64,000 bases of DNA from Arabidopsis thaliana (Eukaryota; Streptophyta; Magnoliopsida; Brassicales; Brassicaceae): the NCBI RefSeq assembly GCF_000001735.4, contig NC_003076.8, forward strand, positions 16,371,835 to 16,435,834. The letters run 5' to 3'. Below are positions 22,175 through 55,815 of the stretch, piece by piece (position 1 is the stretch's first letter; each line of letters opens with the position of its first letter). The position numbers and the translations under genes are program-made. The notes under the pieces are model-generated. The model did no database searches and had not been told where the DNA came from. It saw only the letters and a program-made list of their open reading frames with translations.

Positions 22175-22526
22175 AGTTGAAGGCACATGGGATCAATGTT
22201 ATCTACCATGTAGATTATCCATCCGAAGGATAGGCGCTTGAGATCTTTTGTCTATATGCTTTTAAACAAAGTTCTCGGCGGGATGGTTATGAAGAGCATG
22301 CAGCAAAAGTAGTTAAGCTTTGCGGTAATCTTCCACTGGCCATTCGTGTTGTGGGTTCTTCTTTTAATGGAGACAGCTAAGATGAGCGGATGCTTCAATT
22401 ATATGGGACAGAAACTAATCTTGATAGAAAAATTGAGGATTTCGTCTTCAGAGTGGGTTATGACAAATTGTTGGAGAAACATCATTCTCGGTTTCTTCAT
22501 ATTGCATGTTTTATGTGACAACCATG
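22175..22526 (+). pseudogene. TNL relic: NB-ARC domain fragment
   Basis: About 350 bp closely related to TNL copies 1 and 2 (compare 24770-25130), covering the part after RNBS-B through the GLPL region to the start of the ARC2 segment. It carries several lesions: an in-frame stop where the paralogues read P-S-E-E-E-A, another after G-D-S, and a deletion of about 20 bp near the end. There is no TIR, P-loop or LRR. It is followed directly by a TOM20-like promoter and exon, the same TNL-then-TOM20 order seen at 32388-32689, so it is the leftover of a third TNL/TOM20 unit. Confidence 0.85.
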
Positions 22527-22544
22527 GGTCGAAGACCCCAATAT

Positions 22545-22950
22545 ATTTTTGTATTCTTTATTGGGCTGACTTTATCATAAAGCCCATAAGGCCCATTACT
22601 TTATTCTGTAGGATTCGTGAAACGGCCTTATGATTATGAATTCTGCAATAAAAAAAATTCGTGATTTGTCGTTACGGAAGAAAAAAGGGAAAAAATCGCG
22701 AAGCTTGAGAACACATAGATATGCAGAGTGAAATCGGGAGATTGATGTTCCCTGAAGATGCTCGAAAAGTAGCTGAATCAATCTCTAGATTCCGATGTTC
22801 GCAGTTTAATTCTCATCGGAGAATTTGTACTTCGATTTGGGTTTCTTTGATTTTTTCTTTTGTAGAACTTGACGAGATGGGGAGGAGCATTACTGGAAAT
22901 TTCACAGTTTCAGAAAGTCTCTGAAGTCAAAACAAATGAATCTAGGTGCT
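22545..22950 (+). pseudogene. TOM20 relic: promoter, exon 1 and exon 2
   Basis: Similar to TOM20-4 from its promoter (GGGCTGACTTTA, AAGCCCATAAGGCC) through exon 1 (M-Q-S-E-I-G-R-L-M-F-P-E-D-A-R-K-V-A-E against TOM20-4 M-Q-N-E-N-E-R-L-M-V-F-E-H-A-R-K-V-A-E) and exon 2 (about 22866-22945, with the conserved DNA block TTGACGAGATGGG). The reading is disturbed after exon 1, and the remaining exons lie 4.5 kb downstream on the far side of TNL copy 1. It cannot make an import receptor. Confidence 0.8.
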
Positions 22951-23339
22951 TTTTTTTTTCCTTCTACTTTTTTTTTTTGTTAGCTTTGATGATAATTTTC
23001 AAATTCAATTTAAGAACATAACTGTCATTGATTCTGCCTGGAAATGTGAACTCTTATGGTAGGATTTCAAAATTCTCTTAAAAAAAATGAGTTCTTATGT
23101 TTATAGTGTCACTTTTGACCTTGCTTCAAAGTGGCACTTAAGATTCAGTAGTAGTAGTGCTACTTTTAATGTTTTGCAATTTTAGTAAGATGGATGTGTT
23201 TTGAGGTAACAAATGTTGGTGATTTAGCTTTGCATTCTTTGCCACTAATAACCACGTGAGAATGCTATTCAACAGACTCACGAATTATTCACCTAGTTTT
23301 GAATTATGTCTTTATCTTAATCTCTAGCTTTTATTTAGT

Positions 23340-23672
23340 TCCATAATCAAAGGAATTTAAAACTTATTCTTTGTAGGTTAGCACAAAGAAGCTGACGCCT
23401 ATGTATGCAAACTTTATACAATTGAATTCAAAATCATAAAGGTCAGTGGTCTTCGACGACTGTGGGGACACATTGTTTGTCACTTTGTATTTTTCTGTAG
23501 AAATTTCTTTGGTGTTTCTTACTATAGTGATAGTGGGAAACACAGTGTTATGTGGTCTTTGATGACTTTGGGGACACATGTTTGTTTTTTTCTCTTATCT
23601 TCTCATTTTTCCCTTAATATATAGCACATTGTGATACCTTCTTCTTCAAATCTCACTTTTACTCTATCTCTT
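23340..23672 (+). promoter_or_regulatory. TNL copy 1 promoter and leader (duplicated)
   Basis: Nearly identical to 28508-28844 upstream of TNL copy 2. Both have a TATA-like TTAATATATAG about 55 bp before the ATG. Inside each is a diverged direct repeat (a GTGGGGACACATTGTTTGT-like block and TTTGGGGACACATGTTTGT about 100 bp later). The shared 5' region implies both copies started with the same regulation. Confidence 0.6.
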
Positions 23673-26600
23673 ATGGCTTTTTCATCACCGTCTGACTTCA
23701 AGAGATACCATGTCTTTTCGAGTTTCCATGGACCAGATGTCCGTAGTGGATTTCTCAGTCATTTACACAATCACTTCGAAAGCAAAGGGATCACTCCGTT
23801 CAAGGATCAAGAGATCGAGAGAGGCCATACGATCGGACCTGAGCTCATACAAGCGATTAGAGAATCTAGAGTCTCGATTGTGGTGCTTTCAGAGAAGTAC
23901 GCTTCTTCGTGCTGGTGCTTAGATGAGTTGGTGGAAATCTTGAAGTGCAAAGAAGCTTCGGGGCAAGTTGTGATGACTATTTTTTACAAAGTTGATCCGT
24001 CCGATGTACGGAAACAGCGGGGAGACTTCGGAAGTACTTTCAAGAAAACATGTGAAGGGAAAACCTGGATAGTGAAGCAGAGATGGATCAAAGCTTTGGA
24101 ATATATAGCAACCGTAGCTGGAGAACACTCTCTAAGCTGTTTTTTTTTTTTTCTCTTGGCTCAATGAGTTAGAATGCTTTTCTCTTTCTTAATTGTTTCT
24201 TCAACCGTGGAATTTCTATCATTTAATTAGACCCACCAACTTGATTTTGTTTGCTTTTATTAGGGCTAATGAAGCAGAGTTGATCCAAAAGATTGCTACA
24301 GATGTTTCAAACAAACTTAATCTTACACCGTCGAGGGATTTTGAGGGGATGGTGGGACTTGAAGCTCATTTGACAAAACTGGACTCTTTTTTATGCCTTG
24401 AGAGTGATGATGTAAAGATGATTGGCATTTGGGGTCCTGCTGGAATTGGTAAGACTACCATTGCTAGAGCTTTATTTAACCAACTCTCTACCGGTTTTCG
24501 GCTTAGTTGTTTTATGGGGACCATTGATGTTAATGACTATGATTCGAAGTTGTGTTTGCAAAACAAGCTTCTGTCCAAAATTTTGAACCAAAAGGATATG
24601 AAGATACATCATTTAGGCGCAATTGAAGAATGGCTACATAACCAAAGAGTTCTTATAGTTCTTGATGATGTGGATGATCTAGAGCAACTAGAGGTATTGG
24701 CTAAAGAAAGTTCTTGGTTCGGTCATGGAAGTCGGATCATTGTTTCCTTAAATGATAGAAAGATTTTGAAGGCACATGGGATCAACGATATCTACGATGT
24801 GGATTTTCCATCCGAAGAAGAAGCTCTTGAGATCTTATGTCTATCTGCTTTCAAACAAAATTCTCCACAAGATGGTTTTGAAGAGGTTGCAAAAAGAGTA
24901 GTAGAGCTTTGCGGTAAGCTTCCATTGGGCCTTCGTGTTGTGGGTTCTTCTTTTTATGGGGAGAGCGAGGATGAGTGGAGAATTCAATTATATGGAATTG
25001 AAACTAATCTTGATAGGAAAATTGAGAATGTCTTGAGAGTGGGATATGACAAATTGTCGGAGCGACATCAATCTTTGTTTCTTCATATTGCATGCTTTTT
25101 CAACCATAAAAGTGTTGATTATGTGACAACCATGCTCGCTGACAGTACTTTGGATGTCGAAAATGGGTTAAAGACCTTAGCCGCTAAATCTCTTGTGTCT
25201 ACTAATGGATGGATAACGATGCACTGTCTACTACAACAATTGGGTAGACAAGTTGTTGTTCAACAGGGTGACCCGGGGAAACGTCAGTTTTTAGTAGAGG
25301 CCAAAGAGATTCGCGATGTCTTGGCAAATGAAACAGTAAGTTCTAATCTATATACCCTGGATATTGCCTAATTTTGTTTGTGATAACAGTGTCATCAGTC
25401 TTCTTTTGCAATATTTTGTAGGGTACTGAATCCGTCATAGGTATATCGTTTGACATTTCGAAGATCGAGACGTTATCTATAAGCAAGCGAGCCTTTAATA
25501 GAATGCGTAATCTCAAATTCTTAAATTTCTATAATGGAAGTGTTAGCTTGTTAGAGGACATGGAATATCTACCTCGTCTAAGGTTACTTTATTGGGGTTC
25601 ATACCCGAGAAAAAGTCTTCCTCTGACATTTAAGCCAGAATGTCTCGTCGAACTCTATATGGGATTCAGCAAGTTGGAGAAGCTATGGGGAGGAATCCAG
25701 GTTGGTATTTGATACTTGTGATTGTGAATACGTTTGTTTACCAATGATATTTAACCTTAGTATGATATTCCTCATTTTTTTGTGTGTTTGACATGCAGCC
25801 CCTCACAAATCTAAAGAAAATAAATTTGGGATATTCCTCTAATTTGAAAGAAATCCCAAATCTTTCGAAAGCCACTAACCTCAAGACGTTGACGCTTACC
25901 GGTTGTGAGAGTTTGGTGGAGATTCCATCCTCTATTTGGAATCTACAGAAACTGGAAATGCTGTATGCGTCAGGATGCATTAAGCTACAAGTTATTCCCA
26001 CCAACATCAACTTAGCATCTCTTGAGGAAGTCAACATGAGTAATTGCTCACGTCTGAGAAGTTTTCCAGATATATCTAGTAACATTAAGCGTCTCTATGT
26101 AGCAGGCACAATGATTAAAGAATTTCCTGCATCCATTGTTGGACACTGGTGTCGTCTTGATTTTCTTCAGATAGGCAGCAGAAGCCTCAAGAGATTAACA
26201 CATGTCCCAGAGAGTGTAACACATCTAGACCTACGCAACAGTGATATAAAGATGATCCCAGATTGCGTCATAGGTCTTCCGCATCTAGTATCTCTTCTCG
26301 TCGAAAACTGCACAAAACTGGTGTCAATTCAGGGTCATTCCCCTTCGCTGGTGACCCTATTTGCAGACCACTGTATATCACTCAAGAGCGTATGCTGCTC
26401 TTTCCACGGACCAATCTCGAAATTGATGTTCTACAACTGTCTGAAACTGGATAAGGAATCAAAAAGAGGAATCATACAACAATCGGGTAACAAGTCTATA
26501 TGCTTGCCAGGTAAAGAAATCCCTGCAGAGTTCACTCACCAAACTATAGGGAACTTGATAACCATCTCCCTGGCTCCAGGTTGTGAGGAGGCTTATTCTA

Positions 26601-27295
26601 CGTTCTCAAGATTTAAGGCTTGCCTCCTGCTTTCGCCAATCAAGAATTTCGCATTTAATAAGATAAATTGTTTTCTAAGAAGCAAAGGTGTCGAAATTAG
26701 TCGCACTACAGAGTCTATATATCCTTTTGTGTCTGGTGGATCTCTATCAGAACATCTGTTTATCTTTTGTGGCGACTTATTTCCTGAAGAAAACAGAAGC
26801 CTTATGGACGTGACTCCGAACGAGATTCTGTTTGATTTCAGCTCCAGTGATGTCGAGATTGTGGAATGTGGTGTAAAGATCTTTTTAAGTAGTGGCATTG
26901 AAGTGGGCTACTGTGAAACTGGAGGCAACAGAAACCACCACATAGATGGAGAAGCAGAAGCGTTTAAGGTAACTCAAGTTGAAAACAGTAAACATACAGG
27001 CCACTGGAGTTGGCTTAGGAAGCTTCGTCTGGGGAAGAAGAAGATGAAGAATAATAAGACAGAGCTTAGTTCGAGACCAGTCTCAGGATTTAGTGATCTT
27101 ACTCGGGGAATCTTTATAAGGTATCAGGAGCCTGAAGCTGTTGAGCTCACTAAAGATGAAAGAATCACAGATCTTTCGAGTTTACTATGTATTGGTTCCC
27201 TTGTGGTCTGTTTTTTTCTTTCTGTTTTTTTCGGGCAACCCCTTGTGGTCTCTGTTTTGTTGCTTTTTTCTTGCTTCTTTCTTCAGATGCAATGA
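23673..27295 (+). CDS. TIR-NB-LRR immune receptor, copy 1
   Basis: Exon 1 (TIR) starts at 23673; exon 2 (NB-ARC) is 24264-25335, exon 3 25422-25700, exon 4 (LRR and C-terminus) 25799-27295; about 1,100 aa. The TIR domain keeps W-C-L-D-E-L with the glutamate needed for NADase activity. NB-ARC shows the P-loop (GPAGIGKTT), kinase-2 (L-I-V-L-D-D-V-D-D), GLPL-type L-P-L-G-L-R-V and M-H-C in place of M-H-D. LRRs run from about 25,500 to 26,450, then a C-JID-like segment ([13 protein letters not shown]). The last 40 residues are hydrophobic. The exon-1 donor is odd: copy 2 has CTG|GTTTG, here it is CTG followed by T, with no GT at 24140-24141. The nearest GT (24139-24140) shifts the frame by one base. 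Read-through would give a TIR-only protein of about 164 aa. Corresponds to AT5G40910 by order. Confidence 0.85.
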
Positions 27296-27377
27296 GCTGC
27301 ATCACAGACAGATCTTGTTGTGTTTGTATGTGCGAAACAAAAAAAGATTTCAGTTTTCTTGTTCTTATATATACTCC

Positions 27378-28190
27378 CTCTGGGAGAGGCCTTGTTAATC
27401 TATCCAAAGAAGCACGATGCTCTTTGGTGCATTGGGGATGCTCATACTTCATATGGGGTTTTGACTCCTGATCAAACTGAGGCTAGAGATCACTTTGAGA
27501 AAGCTACTCTGCTTTTTCAACAAGCTTTGGAGGAGGTAATTAGTCTCTTTCTTTTGTAATCCTCACCTAATCAAAGTGATTGTTATTTGTTTTTTGTGCG
27601 TGGTGTTTTGTAATTTGAGATGTATATTTACGCAGCAACCGGAGAATGCTCACTATGCGAGATCACTGGAATTGGCTTCCAAGGTACATCTTTATTGTTA
27701 AAGTTTCCTCAAATTTGTCATGTTTCATCTTTTGGTTCTGGTTTAAGAAACTGAGATCTACGTGTTGTAGAGGCTTATCTAGTTGTCTTAGCAATAGGAA
27801 CTGCGAGGTGGTTTGGTTTGATGGATATATATATAATCACTCATAGACGGAGAAAAATGTATCTGAATCATACCTTTATGCCTAGATATGAAGTTTCTTT
27901 AGTGTAGAATAAACTCATTGTACAGTGAAGCAATGGTTATGAATCTTTGGTTTTTGTTCGTTAGACCAATTCTCCTTCTATTTGTGCAAAAATGCAGGGT
28001 CCAGAACTAAATACAGAGGTTCACAAACATGGTTTAGGTCCACAACCATTGGGCGGCACCGCAGGACCACCATCTACCAGTGCGAAGGTATTTTCTTTTC
28101 TTCAAATATCCCAATTGGTTTGATGAAAATCTAACATTTTTGTTCTTTCTTAGATTACTTTGAGAAAGCTACTCAGTTCCTACAACAAGC
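27378..28190 (+). pseudogene. TOM20 relic: exons 3-5 plus an extra exon 3 scrap
   Basis: Counterparts of TOM20-4 exon 3 (27378-27536, starting L-G-E-A-L and including P-K-K-H-D-A-L-W), exon 4 (27636-27683) and exon 5 (27998-28087) keep splice signals and open frames. The last exon with the membrane anchor is missing; instead a second piece of exon 3 (D-Y-F-E-K-A-T-Q-F-L-Q-Q-A) follows at about 28152-28190. The relic begins in the middle of exon 3, 83 bp after the stop of TNL copy 1. With 22545-22950 it forms one TOM20 copy split around TNL copy 1. Confidence 0.8.
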
Positions 28191-28199
28191 TTTTTTTGT

Positions 28200-28480
28200 T
28201 TGCTCTCTTTTTAGTATTCATCAAATTCAGATGAGCTTTAATGATAAGGTCATATTCGTTTGATTGAATCTGCCTGAAAATGTGAACTCTTTATGTTAGA
28301 ATTTCAAAATACTCTTGAATTTGGAATATTCTTTTATGTATGTATGTATGTTAAGATGTACAGTTTTCTCTATTAAAAAAAAAAAAGATGTACATTTTGT
28401 TGAAATTCGAATTGGGTGGTTTGTTCGAATTACAGGAAATATCACAGTTTCAGAAAGTCGAGAGTCAACAGACTCTCGAA
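28200..28480 (+). pseudogene. TOM20 relic: intron 2 and exon 2 scraps
   Basis: 28250-28400 matches intron 2 of TOM20-4 (ATTCGTTTGATTGA, then TATGTATGTATGTTAAGATGTA). 28436-28460 (GGAAATATCACAGTTTCAGAAAG) matches exon 2, though it lies after the intron piece and so is out of normal order. It shows more than one rearrangement. A poly(A) micro-insertion lies inside at 28353-28394. Confidence 0.6.
28353..28394 (+). mobile_element. Poly(A) micro-insertion with empty site in the window
   Basis: AAGATGTACA occurs at 28353-28362 and 28385-28394 around GTTTTCTCTATT plus 12 A. The homologous TOM20-4 intron 2 (about 33065-33095) reads straight through AAGATGTATGTTTTGTTATTG with a single copy and no A run, i.e. 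the unoccupied site. Confidence 0.65.
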
Positions 28481-28844
28481 TTATTCACCTAGTTTTGAAA
28501 ATTTTGTCTTTATTAGTTCCATAATCAGAGGAATTTATAACTTATTCTCGTTAGCACAAAGAAGCTGATGCCTATGTATGCAAACTTTACACAATTGATT
28601 TCAAAATCATAGAAGTCAAGGTCTTCGACGGCTGTGGGGACACATTGTTTGTCACTTTGTATTTTTCTGTAGAAATTTCTTTGGTGTTTCTTACTATAGT
28701 GATAGTGGGAAACACAGTGTTCTGTGGTCTTTGATGACTTTGGGGACACATGTTTGTTTTTTTCTCTTATCTTCTCATTTTTCCCTTAATATATAGCACA
28801 TTGTGATACCTTCTTCTTCAAATCTCACTTTTACTCTATCTCTT

Positions 28845-31800
28845 ATGGCTTTTTCATCACCGTCTGACTTCAAGAGATACCATGTCTTTTCGAGTTTCCA
28901 TGGACCAGATGTCCGTAGTGGATTTCTCAGTCATTTACACAATCACTTCGAAAGCAAAGGGATCACTCCGTTCAAGGATCAAGAGATCGAGAGAGGCCAT
29001 ACGATCGGACCTGAGCTCATACAAGCGATTAGAGAATCTAGAGTCTCGATTGTGGTGCTTTCGGAGAAGTATGCTTCTTCGGGCTGGTGCTTAGATGAGT
29101 TGGTGGAAATCTTGAAGTGCAAAGAAGCTTCGGGGCATGCTGTGATGACTATTTTTTATAAAGTTGATCCGTCCAGTGTACGGAAACAGTGGGGAGACTT
29201 CGGAAGTACTTTCAAGAAAACTTGTGAAGGGAAAACCGAGGAAGTGAAGCAGAGATGGAGCAAAGCTTTGGCCTATATAGCAACCGTAGCTGGAGAACAC
29301 TCTCTAAACTGGTTTGTTGATTAAATTATAATGCTTTTATCTTTCTAAATCGATGCTTCAACGGTGGAATTTCTATGATTTAATTAGACCCACCAACTTG
29401 ATTTTGTTTGCTTTTGTTAGGGATAATGAAGCAGAGATGATCCAAAAGATTGCTATAGATGTTTCAAACAAACTTAATGTTACACCTTCAAGGGATTTTG
29501 AAGGGATGGTGGGACTTGAAGCTCACCTGGCGTAACTGGACTCTTTGTTATGCCTCGAGTGTGATGATGTGAAGATGATTGGCATTTGGGGTCCTGCGGG
29601 AATTGGTAAAACTACCATTGCTAGAGCTTTGTTTAACCAACTCTTTACCGGTTTTCGGCATAGCTGTTTTATGGGGAACATTGATGTTAATAACTATGAT
29701 TCGAAGCTGCGTTTGCATAACATGCTTCTTTCGAAGATCTTGAACCAAAAGGATATGAAGATACATCATTTAGGCGCAATTGAAGAATGGCTACGTAACC
29801 AAAGAGTGCTTATAGTTCTTGATGATGTGGATGATCTAGAGCAACTAGAGGTATTGGCTAAAGAAAGTTTTTGGTTCGGTCCTGGAAGCCGGGTCATCGT
29901 TACCTTGAAAGATAAAAAGATTTTGATGGCACATGGGATCAACGACATCTACCATGTGGATTATCCGTCCCAAAAAAAAGCTCTTGAGATATTTTGTCTT
30001 TCTGCTTTCAAACAAAGTTCTCCACAAGATGGTTTCGAAGAGCTTGCAAGAAAAGTAGTAGAGCTTTGCGGTAATCTTCCATTGGCTCTTCGTGTTGTGG
30101 GTTCTTCTTTTTATGGGGAGAGCGAGGATGAGTGGAGGCTTCAATTGTATGGGATAGAAACTAATCTTGATAGAAAAATTGAGCATGTCTTGAGAGTGGG
30201 GTATGACAAATTATTGGAGAAACATCAATCTCTGTTTCTTCATATTGCATGCTTTTTCAACCATGAAAGTGTTGATTATGTGTCAACCATGCTCGCTGAC
30301 AGTACTTTGGATGTCGAAAATGGGTTGAAGACCTTAGCCGCTAAGTCTCTTGTGCATATATCTACTCATGGGCTGGTAAGGATGCACTGCCTACTACAAC
30401 AGTTGGGTAGACAAGTAGTTGTTCAACAGTCTGGTGAGCCGGGGAAACGTCAGTTTTTAGTAGAGGCCAAAGAGATTCGTGATGTGTTGGCAAATGAAAC
30501 AGTAAGTTCTTACCTATATATATACTCCCTTGATATTCCCTACTTTCTGTTTGTGATAACAGTTTCATCGGTTTTGTTTTGCAATATTTGGTAGGGTACT
30601 GGATCTATCATTGGTATATCATTTGATATGTCCAAGATCGGGGAGTTCTCTATAAGGAAACGAGTCTTTGAAGGGATGCATAATCTCAAATTCTTAAAAT
30701 TCTACAATGGAAATGTTAGCTTGTTAGAGGACATGAAATATCTACCTCGTCTAAGGTTACTTCATTGGGATTCATACCCGAGAAAAAGGCTTCCTCTGAC
30801 ATTTCAGCCAGAATGTCTCGTCGAACTCTATTTGGTATCCAGCAAGTTGGAGAAGCTATGGGGAGGAATCCAGGTTGGTATTTGGTACTTGTGATTGTGA
30901 ATACGTTTGTTTACTAATGATAATTAAACTTAGTATGATATTCGTCATCTTTGTGACATGCAGCCCCTCACAAATCTAAAGAAAATAAATTTGGAATACT
31001 CCTCTAATTTGAAAGAAATCCCAAATCTTTCGAAAGCCACTAATCTCGAGACGTTGAGACTTACCGGTTGTGAGAGTTTGATGGAGATTCCGTCCTCTAT
31101 TTCGAATCTACACAAATTGGAAGTACTGGATGCGTCAGGGTGCTCTAAGCTACATGTTATTCCCACCAAGATCAACTTATCATCTCTAAAAATGGTCGGC
31201 ATGGATGATTGCTCACGACTGAGAAGTTTTCCAGATATTTCGACTAACATCAAGATACTCAGTATAAGAGGCACAAAGATTAAAGAATTTCCTGCGTCCA
31301 TTGTTGGAGGTCTTGGTATTCTTCTGATAGGCAGCAGAAGCCTCAAGAGATTAACACATGTCCCAGAGAGTGTATCGTATTTAGACCTAAGCCATTCTGA
31401 TATAAAGATGATTCCAGATTACGTCATAGGTCTCCCGCATCTACAACATCTGACCATCGGAAACTGCAGAAAACTGGTGTCTATTGAGGGTCATTCCCCT
31501 TCGCTGGAGTCCATAGTTGCATACCGCTGTATATCACTCGAGAGCATGTGTTGCTCTTTCCACAGGCCAATCTTGAAACTGGAGTTCTACAACTGTCTGA
31601 AACTGGATAATGAATCAAAAAGACGAATCATACTACACTCGGGTCACAGAATTATTTTTTTGACAGGTAATGAAGTCCCTGCACAGTTCACTCACCAAAC
31701 TAGAGGGAACTCGATAACCATCTCTCTGTCTCCAGGTGGTGAGGAGTCTTTCTCTGTGTCCTCAAGATTTAGGGCTTGCCTTGTGCTTTCGCCAAGCAAG

Positions 31801-32388
31801 AATTCCCCATATTCTGACATAAATTGTTTTCTAAGAACCAAACAAGGTGTCGAAATTAACAGCACTGCAAAGTCCATATATTCAAGTCCCCCTAACAGAT
31901 CTCTATCAGAATATCTGTTAATTTTTTTTGGCGACATATTTCCTGAAGCAAACAGATGCCTTATGGACGTGACCCCGAACGAAATTGTGTTTGAATTCAG
32001 CTCCTCTAGTGCTAAGACTATGGAATGTGGTGTACAGATCTTGGCAGAAGGAGGACAGAATTGTAGTGTCGTCGAAATGGGCCACTCTGAAACTGGAGGC
32101 AACAGAAACCACCTCACAGATGTTTTAAAGGTATCTCAAGTCGAAACCATCAAAAACAGTAATAATACAGGTCACTGGAGTTGGCTTCTAGGGAAGAAGA
32201 AGACAGAGCTTAGTTCGACATTAGTCTCAGGATCCAGTGATGATACCTTGATGAGGCATCATGAGCCTGAAGCTGTTCAGCTCAGTAATGATGAAAACAC
32301 CAGAAATCTTTCGCGTTTGCTATGTATTGTTTCCCTTGTGATCTCTGTTTTGTTACTTTTCCATTGCTTTTTTCTTCAAATGCAATGA
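28845..32388 (+). pseudogene. TIR-NB-LRR immune receptor, copy 2, with one nonsense codon
   Basis: Exons 28845-29311, 29421-30501, 30595-30873, 30964-32388 splice cleanly (GT-AG) to a 1,083-codon frame with one in-frame stop, TAA at 29533-29535. It falls at codon 194, just before the NB-ARC P-loop; copy 1 has a sense codon there (A-H-L-T-K-L-D against A-H-L-A-stop-L-D). Everything else looks intact: TIR with W-C-L-D-E-L, P-loop, kinase-2, GLPL, M-H-C, LRRs, C-JID-like region and a C-terminal hydrophobic segment (L-L-C-I-V-S-L-V-I-S-V-L-L-L-F). The full-length protein cannot be made without read-through; a TIR-only protein of about 193 aa could. It corresponds to AT5G40920, which I recall as annotated a pseudogene. 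Confidence 0.9.
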
Positions 32389-32688
32389 CCTGATGCATTA
32401 CACTACAGATCCTGTTGTGGTTAGACGTAATAGTTGTTGTTGTATTGTTTGGTGTTTTTTTTGTTGTTACTAGTTGTTGTATGATTGTGTGAAAAAAAAA
32501 GGGTTTAGTTTTCTTAGATATTGTTGGGCTGACTTTAGCAAAAGCCCATAAGGCCTTTTAAGCCCACTTCCCGGACGAGAAGAGCGAACCGACTTATATA
32601 CGAGGATTTATAGCTCGTCTTCCTTAAATTATCGTTTGTGACGGAAGAAGAATCAAAACAATTAATCGCGAGGCTTGAGAATCAATCA

Positions 32689-33991
32689 ATGGATATGCAG
32701 AATGAAAACGAGAGATTGATGGTCTTCGAACATGCTCGCAAAGTAGCAGAAGCAACCTACGTCAAAAACCCTTTAGATGCCGAGGTTAGTCTTTTGATTT
32801 ATCGTTTTTTGGATAATTTACCCTAAATTCGATTACGAATTTTGTTATTCGAATTTTGTTTCTTTGTTTCTGTAGAATTTGACGAGATGGGCAGGAGCTT
32901 TACTTGAACTATCACAGTTTCAGACAGAGCCAAAGCAGATGATTCTAGGTTCTTTGTTATTTCTTCTCGTTTTAGTTTTGTATCGAATTCAGATTAAATT
33001 CGTTTGATTGAGTCTGCCTTGAAATTGAATTATTATAGACTTAGATTAGTCGTTTATGTATGTATGTTAAGATGTATGTTTTGTTATTGAAATCTGTAAC
33101 TAATACTTAAAAGATGGAATTTTACGTAGAGGCTATTTTGAAGCTGGGAGAGGCCTTGGTCATCGATCCAAAGAAGCATGATGCTCTTTGGTTAATTGGG
33201 AATGCTCATCTTTCATTTGGGTTTTTGAGTTCTGATCAGACAGAAGCTAGCGATAACTTTGAGAAAGCTTCTCAGTTCTTTCAACTTGCTGTGGAGGAGG
33301 TAATTAGTCTCTTTCTTTCGTAATCCTGACCTAATTAATATGATTTGTTTTATGTTTTTGTCTTCTGTGGTGTTTTGAAATGTGAGATGTATTTTTGCAG
33401 CAACCAGAGAGCGAACTCTATCGGAAATCATTGACATTGGCTTCCAAGGTACATCTTCATTGTTAAAATTTCCTCAAATTTGGTCATGTTTACTTCCTGA
33501 TTTAAGAAATTGAGATCTGCTTAGCTAGTTGTCTTAGCAATAGGAACTGCGAGGTGGTTTGGTTTGATGGATATATATAGTAACTCATAGACGGGGAATA
33601 ATGTATGTGAACTGAATCATACCTTTATGCCTAGAGATGAAGCTTTTTTAGTGTAGAATAAACTCATTGTTCAGTGAAGCAATGGTTATGAATCTTTGAT
33701 TTTTGTTCGTGAGACCTATTCTCCTTCTCTCTTTGTGAAACTGCAGGCTCCAGAACTACATACAGGCGGCACCGCTGGACCATCATCTAACAGTGCGAAG
33801 GTTGTTTCTTTTATTCGAAACTACAATTTGGTTTGATGAAAATTTAACACGTTTGTTCTTTCTCACAGACGATGAAGCAGAAAAAGACCAGTGAGTTCAA
33901 GTATGATGTGTTCGGATGGGTCATCTTAGCCAGTTACGTTGTTGCGTGGATCAGTTTTGCCAATTCTCAGACGCCGGTGTCAAGGCAGTAA
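32689..33991 (+). CDS. TOM20-4: Mitochondrial import receptor subunit TOM20-4
   Basis: Six exons (32689-32784, 32876-32948, 33130-33299, 33401-33448, 33747-33800, 33869-33991) encode 187 aa. Plant TOM20 is a tail-anchored outer-membrane receptor for presequences; the TPR-like helical domain is residues about 1-145 and the anchor is near the C-terminus (V-F-G-W-V-I-L-A-S-Y-V-V-A-W-I-S-F-A). The frame is open upstream but only from GTG; ATG 32689 is the first ATG in frame. It is the only complete TOM20 here, with relics at 22545, 27378 and 34360. Exon 5 is 36 nt shorter than in the relics. The promoter has AAGCCCATAAGGCC site-II-like motifs, usual for mitochondrial protein genes. Confidence 0.95.
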
Positions 33992-34049
33992 CGCTCACCA
34001 AGAGCGTCTAAAGACCAGCACTTTTTTTTTAATGCATTTTGAAACAAAA

Positions 34050-34295
34050 GAGTTTTCTCATTATAACAACTCCTAGAACATATTTGAAGTTAAGAATGAG
34101 AGAGACTCAGAAAATGTATAAGAACTCATATTGTCCTTTGGAAATTAACATACAAATTAGTGAAGACATTATGCCTAACTCAGTAGAGTACTCTTCATAA
34201 TCACCTTCTTCTTCTCCCCCATCGCTTAGCTCTGACAAAGACTCCCTATGTAACCTGTTTCTCGTTGGGTACCGTACCATCATTTGGTTAACAAA
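34050..34295 (-). pseudogene. Duplicated 3' end of FLA20
   Basis: Minus-strand homology to the last coding part and 3' flank of FLA20 (compare 34705-34960). Shared blocks include TTTGTTAAC/TTTGGTTAA around the F-N-Q-M segment, the acidic E-E-E-G tail and S-S/T-E-L-G. It is degraded and lacks the FAS1 domains. With the TOM20 3' relic at 34360-34680 it forms a second copy of the TOM20/FLA20 boundary. Confidence 0.7.
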
Positions 34296-34359
34296 AATAT
34301 CAGTTTTCTTTTCCTTGTACTATATTTGTCCATGATCAGGTTCTAGCTTTGAAGATTAA

Positions 34360-34680
34360 CATTTCATCTTATTCTAGCGATAGTAACTTCTAGGTGGTTC
34401 GAATTTATCTACTCATACAAGGAGAATAGTGCATCTGAATCATGTTCTGCCTATAGATGAAGTTTTTAGTCTAGAAAAACACAGTATATAGTGAAGCAAT
34501 GGTTATGACTTATGAGTGCAGGCTCCAATACTACATACAGAGGTTCACGAACATGGTTTACGTCCACAAATACGAGCAACCTCACAGGCTATGAAGAACA
34601 ACACTGATTCCAGGTACTAACTACCATCAACCTCAGAGACCAATATCGAGCCAGTAACATTCACCAAGAGAGTCTAAATT
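34360..34680 (+). pseudogene. TOM20 relic: intron 4 to 3' end
   Basis: Matches TOM20-4 from within intron 4 (CGATAGTAACTTCTAGGTGG against CAATAGGAACTGCGAGGTGG) through exon 5 (34526 onward, L-H-T-E-V-H-E-H-G-L) to the 3' end (CAGTAACATTCACCAAGAG against CAGTAACGCTCACCAAGAG). Exon 6 is mostly lost. It keeps the E-V-H segment that TOM20-4 lacks. Confidence 0.7.
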
Positions 34681-34821
34681 CACAACTTTATATTCATTTT
34701 CAAACTAAAGAGGTTCTCATTGTTAACAACTCTGAACAGATTCGAGATTATGAAATAAGAGAATCAACACTGATATGAGTATCTCTCTACATTGCTGTTG
34801 AATCAAATTGTCTTGTAGAAA

Positions 34822-35973
34822 TCAGTGAAGACCATAGTCACCTAACTCAGAAGAGTACTCTCCATGAACACCTTCTTCTTCTTGTTCTCCATTGTTTAGC
34901 ACTGTGATAGAATCTCCCACATCCACCTGTTTCTCTTTTGTTACAATCATCTGATTAAAGCCATGAACAGCAATCCAATCGTTGACATACAAATCTGGAT
35001 ATATGAGTGGAACTCCATTGAGAAGAAGTATATCACCGGACAAAGAAATCTCAATCTCATACCCTTTAAGAACAGTCTGCAGAATCGATCCTTCCTTAGC
35101 AAATTTCTGAAGATCTTTCCATAAGAGAAGTTGACTGACAACATGTCCTCTGAAAATAGTAACGTAATCGGAGAATTTAGTAGTTGGATTTGGAATTGCT
35201 TCGTCGATCGGAGCAAAGACTGTGATCTTCGTGTCGTTTCCTGAAGTATTATCTTCTAATTGCAGAGCGAGAAACGTAGCTATAATCACGAAACCTCTCG
35301 ACATTAACAATCTTGAAGCCGATTCAAAGATGTTGAAGCGATTCACTGGTTTAGATCTATTGGGAAGATTTCGAGTGGAATCCGAAGCGATATTAGGACT
35401 TGGAGGTGTTTGAGTCGCTGAGCTAGGGATAGGGATTGAACCAGTAGATGAAGTAGTGCTTGGGATTGAAGAAGAAGATGATGAATCGTCGGAGATTTTC
35501 GTCGGTGATGTGAAAAACTCGTCGGATCCGTAAATCACGACGTATCCGTCGTCAAAAACAGGAGAATCTTGGACTACGACGTTGTTGATCGAAGTTTTAC
35601 CTCCGAATCGTGAAGAATTCGTGACGGTTAGAGAGTAATTAGATCTGAGAGTAGGGATTTTGGCGCCATTTGGGAGGTTTCTTAAGGTTTCTCCTGGGAG
35701 TCTCGTCGGAGAGAGCTGGTACTTCATATCGAGAAGCGAAGGTTGACCAAACTTAGAGAAAGATTGATCAGAAGGTGCGAAGAGGGTGAGTTCTTGCCAA
35801 TCTTCGAGGTTTAGATCTTGATTCGCGAGCTTTAGTGTGAGTCCCATGGATAAGTAGCCGGAATCGGAAAGAACTTCCACGGCGGATGAAACAGATGTCA
35901 TAGAAGTTGCGACGAGATCGATATCGAGAACGAAAAATATGAGGAAGAAGGTCGTTAGAAGCTTCGACGCCAT
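34822..35973 (-). CDS. FLA20: Fasciclin-like arabinogalactan protein
   Basis: Intronless, 383 aa from ATG at 35973. Residues 1-24 form a signal peptide (S-K-L-L-T-T-F-F-L-I-F-F-V-L). Two FAS1 domains follow (about 30-155, with L-T-L-F-A-P-S-D, and about 225-350, with I-T-V-F-A-P-I-D). Between them is a Ser/Thr/Pro-rich linker (S-S-S-S-S-I-P-S-T-T-S-S-T) suited to arabinogalactan glycosylation. The C-terminus is acidic and hydrophilic, so I see no GPI-anchor signal. An upstream in-frame ATG at 36096 would add 41 residues and bury the signal peptide, and the TATA box at 36041-36048 lies downstream of it, so I reject that start. Role: cell-wall or cell-surface adhesion. Corresponds to AT5G40940. 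Confidence 0.85.
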   Translation of the reverse strand: MASKLLTTFFLIFFVLDIDLVATSMTSVSSAVEVLSDSGYLSMGLTLKLANQDLNLEDWQELTLFAPSDQSFSKFGQPSLLDMKYQLSPTRLPGETLRNLPNGAKIPTLRSNYSLTVTNSSRFGGKTSINNVVVQDSPVFDDGYVVIYGSDEFFTSPTKISDDSSSSSSIPSTTSSTGSIPIPSSATQTPPSPNIASDSTRNLPNRSKPVNRFNIFESASRLLMSRGFVIIATFLALQLEDNTSGNDTKITVFAPIDEAIPNPTTKFSDYVTIFRGHVVSQLLLWKDLQKFAKEGSILQTVLKGYEIEISLSGDILLLNGVPLIYPDLYVNDWIAVHGFNQMIVTKEKQVDVGDSITVLNNGEQEEEGVHGEYSSELGDYGLH

Positions 35974-36040
35974 TGATGCGTTCTTCGAGCTTTTTTTTTC
36001 GTTTGGTTTCAGAGAAAAGCCGTTGCAGAGGAAGTTACAG

Positions 36041-36048
36041 TTTTTATA
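36041..36048 (-). promoter_or_regulatory. TATA box of FLA20
   Basis: TATAAAAA on the minus strand, about 70 bp before ATG 35973. Transcription should start near 36010-36020, downstream of the ATG at 36096, which decides the start codon. Confidence 0.65.
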
Positions 36049-36096
36049 GTCCGTCCTATTAAGAGAGGGAAAATATTTACTGGGCTTTTTATTCAT

Positions 36097-36138
36097 AGGC
36101 CCATGTGTTTTTTTGTCAACAGGCCCATATGTTTTTTT
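36097..36138 (-). mobile_element. Poly(A) micro-insertion between FLA20 and the R2 gene
   Basis: AGGCCCATGTG plus T7 (36097-36114) and AGGCCCATATG plus T7 (36121-36138) are separated by GTCAAC. In the poly(A) sense the stub is GTTGAC. The event also doubled a GGCCCAT (site-II-like) promoter motif between two divergent genes. Confidence 0.5.
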
Positions 36139-36331
36139 CTTTTTTAGTTTTCAGTTTTTCACATTTTCCCTCCCGCTTCTTTTTCTTATTTCCCTCTCTA
36201 AAAACAAGAAAACATTTTTACATTTTCCCTCCTAAATCTCCAAATTTTCAGAATAAATATCTCAATTACAAATCCATGATAATCCACACAACAATAAACA
36301 CTCATCGATTAAATCTTCTTCACCGGAAAAA

Positions 36332-54048: not shown

Positions 54049-55815
54049 TTAATCTTCAGGATCATAGGGTCTGTTGTCAAAATCCTCTCTGTCCTCAGCT
54101 ATGTCAGGGCAATACCTGTCAGACAAAATCTCAACTTGTTCTGCAAATGTTTTCGATTTCGGTACGCCGATATGAATGATCATCTGGTTCCACCGTTTTC
54201 TACAAGCTTCTCCATCTCGATTCTCCAAAAGATTATCCCAATCCACATCGTCGATACAAGCAGCATCCAGTTTCAAAAGCTCTTCCAAGAGCCTATAGTC
54301 ATCAACGTTAGCCCACATTCCCTTTGCTACCATTGGTGATATCAACTGCTCATACCATTTCTGGCAGCAAGTCACGTGGTCCCGTGTTTCAAGTACGTCG
54401 CTTATAGCCATCCAAGGGATGTTATCTTTGAGCATACCATGTTTTGAGTGTTTCTCTTTGAATGCTTTCATTCTAAGGTCTTTGTTGACAAGGTCAAAGA
54501 GGTTTTGATACTCCTCCCTCATCCAATGTCCTTTCTTCTTACCTGCCAATCTTCCTCTCCTCCAAGCGTCTTTCACATGCTTCCTGTGCTTACCCATTGC
54601 ATCTGCAAGTGTTTTCCAATCATTCCCGTGTGTCTTTTGAAACTCCATAACGAGTTCAATATCCTCTTTCGTCCATATCCCCTGAGATCCTGCTTCAAAT
54701 ATAGTATGTGCACGATGATACACACTATTATAAGTCCTCCAAGGTAAAGCAGATGTAATTTCTTTCCAACAGCCTTTAAGTTGTGGGTATGCCTTGCATT
54801 CCATAACCATCTTTATCCCCTCATCTCCTAAAGCATGGTTATCAATGTATTCTAATACAGCATTCTTTACCATCTCATCTTCTTCTTTTGTAAACCGCTT
54901 ACCCCTCACCACCTTAACTTCTTCTTCATCATCATCTTCCGTTCCTTCATCATCATCACTAGGAAAAAACTCCACTTGGTCAGAAAACTTCACCCTTTTA
55001 CTTGATGTAGATGGGGTGGTCAAGTCTTCATCACTTTTATCAGACTTTTCTTCAGCCTCAGAGACTTCACTTTGCTTCTTCTTCTTCTTCTTCTTCCTTC
55101 TCTTCTTTGCGTCTTTGGTAGAGTTCAAGCCGTTTTCTTCAGTCTCTGAATCCTCACTTTGTTTCTTTTTCTTCCTTTTCTTCTTTCCATCATTTGTAGA
55201 GTCCAAATTGATATCTTCAACATCTGAATCCACACTTGGTTTCTTCTTGTTGTTCTTCCTCTTCACCTCCTTGTCTATGTTTTCTTCAGCTCCCAAATCA
55301 GTATCATCCCGCTTTCTTTTTCCCTTTTTCTTATCAGATACTTTGGAGCTTTCAGTATTTTCTATCACATCACCACCAGATTCTTTCTTGCTCTTCTTCT
55401 TCTTCCTCTTCACACCATCATGAGCTTCAGAATCAACCTTTGTCTCCTTACTTTTCTCCTTGGATTTCTTCTCCACACCATCATCCTCAGCTTCGGAATC
55501 AGCCTTTGTCTCCTTACTTCTCTTTTTCGATTTCTTCTTCACAGCATCAACAGCTTCAGAATCAATCCTTATTGGCTTCTTCGACTTCTTCTTCTTCTTA
55601 ACTATAAAAACCTCATCACCTAGTTTCTCACTTTCACGCCCAGTTATCTCCATATCTTCTCCAGTAAAACCATCCTTATTCTCTCGCTTATTCTTCTTCC
55701 TCTTCTTTTCCTTATCCTTCATAGAACTGTGCTCGGAAATGAATTCTTCACCGGTTTCTTCAGAATCAACCTTAGCGTCACTCTTTTTCTTCTTATTCTT
55801 CTTCTCCTCAGCCAT
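54049..55815 (-). CDS. Myb-like (Reb1/TTF-1-type) protein
   Basis: Intronless, 588 aa, start at 55815. Residues about 1-290 are very Lys/Glu/Ser-rich with many K-K-K-K-K runs (nucleolar-type, probably disordered). Residues about 305-560 hold Myb/SANT-like repeats: G-K-R-F-T-K-E-E-D-E, then G-I-W-T-K-E-D-I-E, then K-K-G-H-W-M-R-E-E-Y, then G-M-W-A-N-V-D-D-Y, each with spaced Trp residues. This order resembles yeast Reb1 and animal TTF-1, which bind rDNA terminators and stop Pol I; that role here is inference. The telo-box at 55842-55850 in its leader fits a ribosome-biogenesis role. Corresponds to AT5G41020. Confidence 0.88.
   Translation of the reverse strand: MAEEKKNKKKKSDAKVDSEETGEEFISEHSSMKDKEKKRKKNKRENKDGFTGEDMEITGRESEKLGDEVFIVKKKKKSKKPIRIDSEAVDAVKKKSKKRSKETKADSEAEDDGVEKKSKEKSKETKVDSEAHDGVKRKKKKSKKESGGDVIENTESSKVSDKKKGKRKRDDTDLGAEENIDKEVKRKNNKKKPSVDSDVEDINLDSTNDGKKKRKKKKQSEDSETEENGLNSTKDAKKRRKKKKKKKQSEVSEAEEKSDKSDEDLTTPSTSSKRVKFSDQVEFFPSDDDEGTEDDDEEEVKVVRGKRFTKEEDEMVKNAVLEYIDNHALGDEGIKMVMECKAYPQLKGCWKEITSALPWRTYNSVYHRAHTIFEAGSQGIWTKEDIELVMEFQKTHGNDWKTLADAMGKHRKHVKDAWRRGRLAGKKKGHWMREEYQNLFDLVNKDLRMKAFKEKHSKHGMLKDNIPWMAISDVLETRDHVTCCQKWYEQLISPMVAKGMWANVDDYRLLEELLKLDAACIDDVDWDNLLENRDGEACRKRWNQMIIHIGVPKSKTFAEQVEILSDRYCPDIAEDREDFDNRPYDPED

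Follow-up and report, generated by a model that had tools for sequence, protein, structure and literature searches.

Interleaved TNL and TOM20 sequences in Arabidopsis thaliana: probable joint tandem duplication of an immune-receptor gene and its downstream neighbour

In a 64,000-nucleotide stretch of Arabidopsis thaliana (NC_003076.8, positions 16,371,835–16,435,834; the window), sequences of TNL immune receptors alternate with sequences of the mitochondrial import receptor TOM20, which raises the question of whether the two genes were copied together, were copied separately, or are held side by side by selection. The array was mapped by self-BLASTN, a repeat search, pairwise alignments with shuffles, and tblastn across the whole window. 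Tests with 200 shuffles used home-made segment swaps intended to preserve dinucleotides, and those with 500 shuffles preserved single-base composition and nothing more. A nucleotide-sugar-transferase-like gene flanks the array on one side and a fasciclin gene on the other; elsewhere in the window, a CLC channel ORF matches CLC-a chains (852 bits over 384 residues), which, with the TOM20-4 tail described below, is why the window is taken as chromosome 5. All parts of the array proper, an NB-ARC relic, two full-length TNLs, an intact TOM20-4 and four TOM20 fragments, are on the forward strand, in the order TNL relic, TOM20 copy A, TNL1, TOM20 copy B, TOM20 scraps, TNL2, TOM20-4 and TOM20 relic D:

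22177–22526, +, TNL relic of unit A, NB-ARC part only (self-BLASTN, translation, site counts)
22558–23082, +, TOM20 copy A: promoter, exon 1, intron 1, exon 2 and most of intron 2
23083–23268, +, filler that matches none of the tested array stretches beyond shuffle level
23269–27360, +, TNL1 block and 3′ spacer; CDS 23673–27295, four exons (splice model, stop, Pfam, spacer homology)
23460–23890, +, tract nearly identical to TNL2 28632–29062: promoter, 5′UTR and first 72 TIR codons
27380–28150, +, TOM20 copy B: from roughly base 15 of exon 3 through exon 5 (introns 3 and 4 and exon 4 included), plus most of intron 5
28151–28464, +, TOM20 scraps before TNL2 (200-shuffle tests)
28153–28186, +, scrap exon-3 piece (0/200 shuffles)
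28263–28319 and 28339–28378, +, scrap intron-2 pieces (0/200 shuffles each)
28429–28459, +, scrap exon-2 piece (0/200 shuffles)
28465–32388, +, TNL2; CDS 28845–32388, open apart from one in-frame stop (TAA, 29533–29535)
32389–32520, +, spacer from TNL2 to TOM20-4, with 32486–32515 in common with the 3′ side of TNL1
32689–33991, +, intact TOM20-4, six coding exons, 187 aa (translation, Pfam)
34151–34291, −, copy of the fasciclin gene 3′ end, following TOM20-4 (against 34816–34958; 0/500 shuffles)
34375–34596, +, TOM20 3′ relic D: intron 4, exon 5 and a weak exon 6 start; adjoins the real fasciclin gene
34822–36150, −, fasciclin-domain gene bordering the array on the right (Pfam PF02469, 1.1e-11)

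This interleaved order, upheld by self-BLASTN, repeats, alignments, shuffles and tblastn, had been proposed in a first-pass annotation, which also placed the restart of TOM20 sequence 83 bp behind the TNL1 stop, right to within a base (stop ending at 27295, homology from 27380). Its 5′ TOM20 part ended too early, at 22950: intron 2 of copy A runs on to at least 23082, with 23027–23082 matching the scrap piece 28263–28319 (0/200 shuffles reach the score). The scraps that it listed are present, in reversed order: an exon-3 piece first, then intron-2 pieces and an exon-2 piece. Searches for homology to the array gave no signal in the DNA upstream of the TNL relic (488/500 shuffles reach the score), upstream of copy A into the spacer (107/500 and 111/500), in the filler 23083–23268 (199/200, 187/200 and 132/500) or in the last bases before copy B (27361–27379; 70/500).

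TNL1, which from gene order we take to be At5g40910, has TIR (5.2e-51), NB-ARC (1.8e-24) and LRR (LRR_4, 1.1e-13; LRR_3, 1.9e-08) domains in TNL order across its exons, together with a ROQ1-type winged helix (WHD_ROQ1, 1.1e-18). For its frame to be open (1100 aa), an alternative acceptor must be assumed at 24275; splicing to the acceptor position used in TNL2 gives a stop after 161 codons. TNL2, presumably At5g40920 by the same ordering, is 86% identical to it (23269–27216 against 28465–32351; self-BLASTN) and carries its nonsense codon (TAA at 29533) directly behind the TIR exon; its domain order is that expected from collinearity with TNL1, the gene covered by the Pfam scan. The At5g name of TOM20-4, like those of the TNLs, is assumed from its fit to gene order. 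TOM20-4 matches PF06552 (TOM20_plant; 4.3e-88 over residues 7–179 of 187), has a hydrophobic C-terminus as read from the translation, and is the only TOM20 sequence here with the features of a complete plant TOM20. Its C-terminal SQTPVSR agrees with the tail given for TOM20-4 in the relevant passage of PMC4154396. Relatives of a 97-aa TOM20-4 stretch were found neither in viral contigs (three pattern matches, of which tblastn showed none to be related) nor in genome contigs (59 pattern matches, none a relative).

The two right-hand units, TNL1 with copy B and TNL2 with TOM20-4, are collinear through TNL, spacer and TOM20 exons 3–5. Behind the TNL1 stop, 27329–27360 matches 32486–32515, just before the TOM20-4 promoter, with a score of 35 against a best of 21 in 200 shuffles (0/200 reach the score). 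Intron divergence is 28/274 between TNL1 and TNL2, a count that omits 27 bases at the beginning of TNL1 intron 1, where alignment is poor, and 58/454 between copy B and TOM20-4 (Fisher P = 0.34; 29/277 and 59/451 with slightly different bounds, P = 0.35), while Ks is 0.18 for the TNLs and 0.21 for copy B and TOM20-4, the latter from few synonymous sites (58). Both genes and the spacer recur in the same order at similar divergence, as in a multi-gene tandem unit, and the agreement in introns and Ks supports a single ~5 kb TNL-spacer-TOM20 block as the putative unit of the later duplication. The earlier suggestion that a TNL/TOM20 pair was the duplicating unit holds for these two right-hand units by collinearity, spacer and intron divergence. 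Taking 7e-9 substitutions per site and year, the later duplication would be ~8–15 million years old.

Joint duplication of a TNL and the adjacent downstream TOM20, followed by decay, is in our judgement the best explanation of the whole array and probably the correct one, with TOM20 as the passenger. The relic TNL directly upstream of copy A counts in its favour, and TOM20 depth is two or three along the gene, as expected from three units. Had TNLs and TOM20s instead been duplicated separately and become interleaved by chance, with no common unit, the excess of TOM20 pieces over TNLs, the position of relic D without a preceding TNL, and the apparently greater age of copies A and D than of the TNL1/TNL2 duplication would be accounted for. 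The spacer in common, the similar divergence of TNL1/TNL2 and B/TOM20-4, and TOM20 intron-2 sequence before both TNLs make such an origin very unlikely.

How copy A relates to copy B is a separate question. The first-pass annotation took them as halves of a single gene, and on that reading TNL1 and its spacer landed inside one TOM20 copy. The near-complementarity that this predicts is seen: copy A ends near TOM20-4 coordinate 33030–33060 and copy B begins at 33144, so that they do not overlap and together lack only ~80–115 bp of the gene, and the left edge of copy A (TOM20-4 coordinate 32521) lies ~6 bp from the end of the spacer homology (32515). Exon divergence from TOM20-4 is the same for both (A, 27/155; B, 47/258; P = 0.90), and Ks gives no clear separation (7/22.8 against 10.5/58.2 sites). 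Against a single split gene, intron 1 of copy A (22/62 differences from TOM20-4) is more diverged than the introns of copy B (58/454; P = 4e-5), although its alignment is near noise (observed mismatch 0.35–0.39 depending on bounds; 0.41–0.57 in 30 shuffles), and the intron/exon contrast differs between the copies (z = 4.4; 3.4 with intron 1 alone); a faster-changing 5′ region would match both observations too. Over the aligned stretches, identity to TOM20-4 is 69% for copy A (22694–22980) and 79% for copy B (27380–28150; both self-BLASTN). Intron 2, also near noise in copy A (observed mismatch 0.40–0.41; 0.44–0.56 in 30 shuffles), differs from TOM20-4 at 43/108 sites in copy A and 40/156 in the scraps (P = 0.016), or 27/80 in copy A when cut at its last secure base, 23082 (P = 0.22). 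Scrap intron 2 itself lies further from TOM20-4 than do the introns of copy B (P = 0.0003), which may simply reflect faster change at the 5′ end of the TOM20 gene.

The lesions also differ. In copy A the start codon reads ATA, with an in-frame ATG two codons on; exon 1 has a 14-base gap and keeps its end beyond it, and exon 2, at 80 bases, is out of frame by one (73 bases, as in TOM20-4, or 79, with the two extra residues of TOM20-3, would keep the frame). Copy B, by contrast, lacks its first ~620 bp (promoter, exons 1 and 2, intron 2 and the opening 14 bases of exon 3) and has an open frame of 97 codons. The spacer behind TNL1 matches that before TOM20-4, and TNL1 leads to copy B as TNL2 leads to TOM20-4. 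Taken with the divergence of intron 1 and the contrast between a damaged copy A and an open copy B, this arrangement disfavours a single copy split by TNL1, an origin that we consider unlikely.

Under joint duplication, the left-hand and outer pieces would derive from one or more older events. The TNL relic has two stop codons within 22177–22512 and otherwise keeps its frame, with 83.6% identity to TNL1 (22177–22512) and 84.6% to TNL2 (22177–22526; both self-BLASTN). At 333 sites compared, all three sequences agree at 270, TNL1 agrees with TNL2 alone at 31, the relic with TNL2 at 17 and with TNL1 at 11, and all differ at four; by these counts the relic would either fall outside the TNL1/TNL2 pair or have evolved faster. 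In scrap intron 2, one stretch is A-like and another TOM20-4-like. At the right-hand end, 33966–34272 matches 34632–34944 at 70% (self-BLASTN), and the exon-6 piece of relic D is at the edge of detection (1/500 shuffles reaches the score). A copy of the fasciclin 3′ end thus precedes relic D and the real fasciclin gene follows it; to judge from this arrangement, the right-hand boundary of an older duplication apparently fell within the fasciclin gene.

Collinearity, spacer homology, the lesions and the near-identical tract are direct observations, whereas the mechanism of the events that we propose is inferred, as are their order and dates, which rest on one haplotype. Head-to-tail joint duplication, by unequal crossing-over or a similar tandem process, would first have produced the TOM20 lines of copy A, relic D and the ancestor of copy B and TOM20-4, a bit of the fasciclin gene being carried along. 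Later duplication of the ~5 kb block would have given TNL1 with copy B and TNL2 with TOM20-4. Deletions would then have removed most of the first TNL (now the relic), the 3′ half of copy A, the missing 5′ end of copy B and parts of the scrap copy, so that one intact TOM20 was left, and recent gene conversion would have given TNL1 and TNL2 almost the same promoter and 5′ TIR part.

The tract behind this last step (~430 bp) has one mismatch to TNL2, followed by 18 differences in the next 246 bases, within a pair that differs at 420 of 3888 columns overall. The longest identical run is 340 columns, against a largest run of 110 in 1000 permutations, and recent conversion over the TNL 5′ ends is the simplest reading of these comparisons. 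Elsewhere in the pair, Ka is 0.165 and Ks 0.194 in the LRR and C-terminal part, and 0.059 and 0.224 in NB-ARC.

Copy B retains a TOM20_plant match (Pfam, 3.6e-37) covering only 60–155 of the 187 profile positions, without the anchor exon. Its intron 4 is closer to TOM20-4 (28/293) than introns 3 and 5 are (30/161), which could mean partial conversion of copy B or uneven rates along the gene. Against TOM20-3 (1zu2), 73 residues comprise ten changed in TOM20-4, 11 changed in copy B, 17 changes common to both, three sites where all differ and 32 where all agree. That copy B is long dead, as exons and introns diverging alike might indicate, was considered and is unsafe given the open frame and these symmetric amino-acid changes. 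By these counts TOM20-4 has changed as much as copy B, and Ka/Ks between the two is 0.18/0.21, which at most hints at relaxed constraint on TOM20-4. A 12-codon stretch of exon 5 is kept in copy B, mostly kept in relic D and absent from TOM20-4; TOM20-3 has residues there, as far as the match to the solved chain runs, so the stretch was probably lost in TOM20-4.

Selection maintaining a TNL next to a TOM20 has only the repeated adjacency in its favour. With four of the five TOM20 pieces truncated (A, B, scraps and D), two of the three TNLs broken (the relic and TNL2) and no fusion seen, we give functional coupling hardly any credence; TOM20 appears as a passenger of NLR birth and death, with no sign here of the two genes working together. 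The array could be kept as a source of TIR-only proteins, in which case TNL2 would be a working truncated receptor and not a dead gene. The table of FPA-sensitive NLR genes in PMC8116057 includes a TIR-only protein isoform of At5g40910, a gene that this source also lists with non-stop transcripts. Together with the TNL2 stop behind the TIR exon and the converted promoter and 72 TIR codons, this isoform suggests such a role, which we nonetheless think quite unlikely.

The counterpart of At5g40920 in the Tsu-0 assembly is disrupted by a pair of VANDAL21 elements arranged head to head, at a site reported as hypermutable in met1 but not in wild-type plants (PMC12312487). This shows that accessions differ structurally at TNL2, by way of a transposon and not of TNL/TOM20 crossing-over. 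The TNL/TOM20 array is not described in the titles and abstract openings among the matches listed, the literature covered lying mostly outside subscription papers. It offers a readable case of a housekeeping-type gene duplicated and damaged as a bystander to the turnover of immune receptors, in which the fasciclin fragment, the spacer and the conversion tract are markers that would let pangenomes reconstruct the steps, and the copy number or integrity of TOM20-4 might vary among accessions owing to its neighbours.

The array is no new system and belongs to a known kind, in which a passenger gene is caught up in the turnover of an NLR cluster. Tandem TOM20 copies also occur in the TOM20-1/TOM20-3 pair on chromosome 3, between which we know of no TNL. 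In soybean Rhg1, a multi-gene copy-number unit, several unrelated genes are likewise copied as one block, whereas in the present array the copies of the passenger gene are broken, with no known dosage effect. The Arabidopsis RPP5 and RPP8 clusters resemble the array in having tandem NLR copies, broken members and gene conversion between copies; the array differs from them in being small (three TNLs) and in having a unit that includes an unrelated mitochondrial gene.

The 5′ ends of the two full-length TNL immune-receptor copies, TNL1 and TNL2, are near-identical between 23,460–23,890 and 28,632–29,062 (1 mismatch), whereas the 246 bases on the right flank hold 18 differences. This pattern probably reflects a recent gene conversion. 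At 24,139–24,275 in TNL1, the donor region of the first intron is altered (poly-T, loss of G), and joining at the acceptor used in TNL2 would therefore break the frame; a predicted splice to another acceptor, at 24,275, would give a frame of 1100 aa.

At 33,747–33,800, exon 5 of TOM20-4, the intact TOM20 gene of the array, lacks 12 codons that are still present in copy B, the truncated TOM20 3′ part behind TNL1. The 3′ end of the neighbouring fasciclin-domain gene is duplicated behind TOM20-4 (34,151–34,291), where it appears to mark the boundary of an older duplication.

Elsewhere in the window, an AT-rich inverted repeat (848–956/1,560–1,671; ~110 bp, 82% alike) is possibly a fold-back element. 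Direct repeats of ~165 bp (50,605–50,764/53,712–53,871; 74% alike, spacing 3.1 kb) lie near an OPT-transporter gene, and a Myb-domain reading frame contains 78-bp and 66-bp tandem repeats (55,085–55,570).
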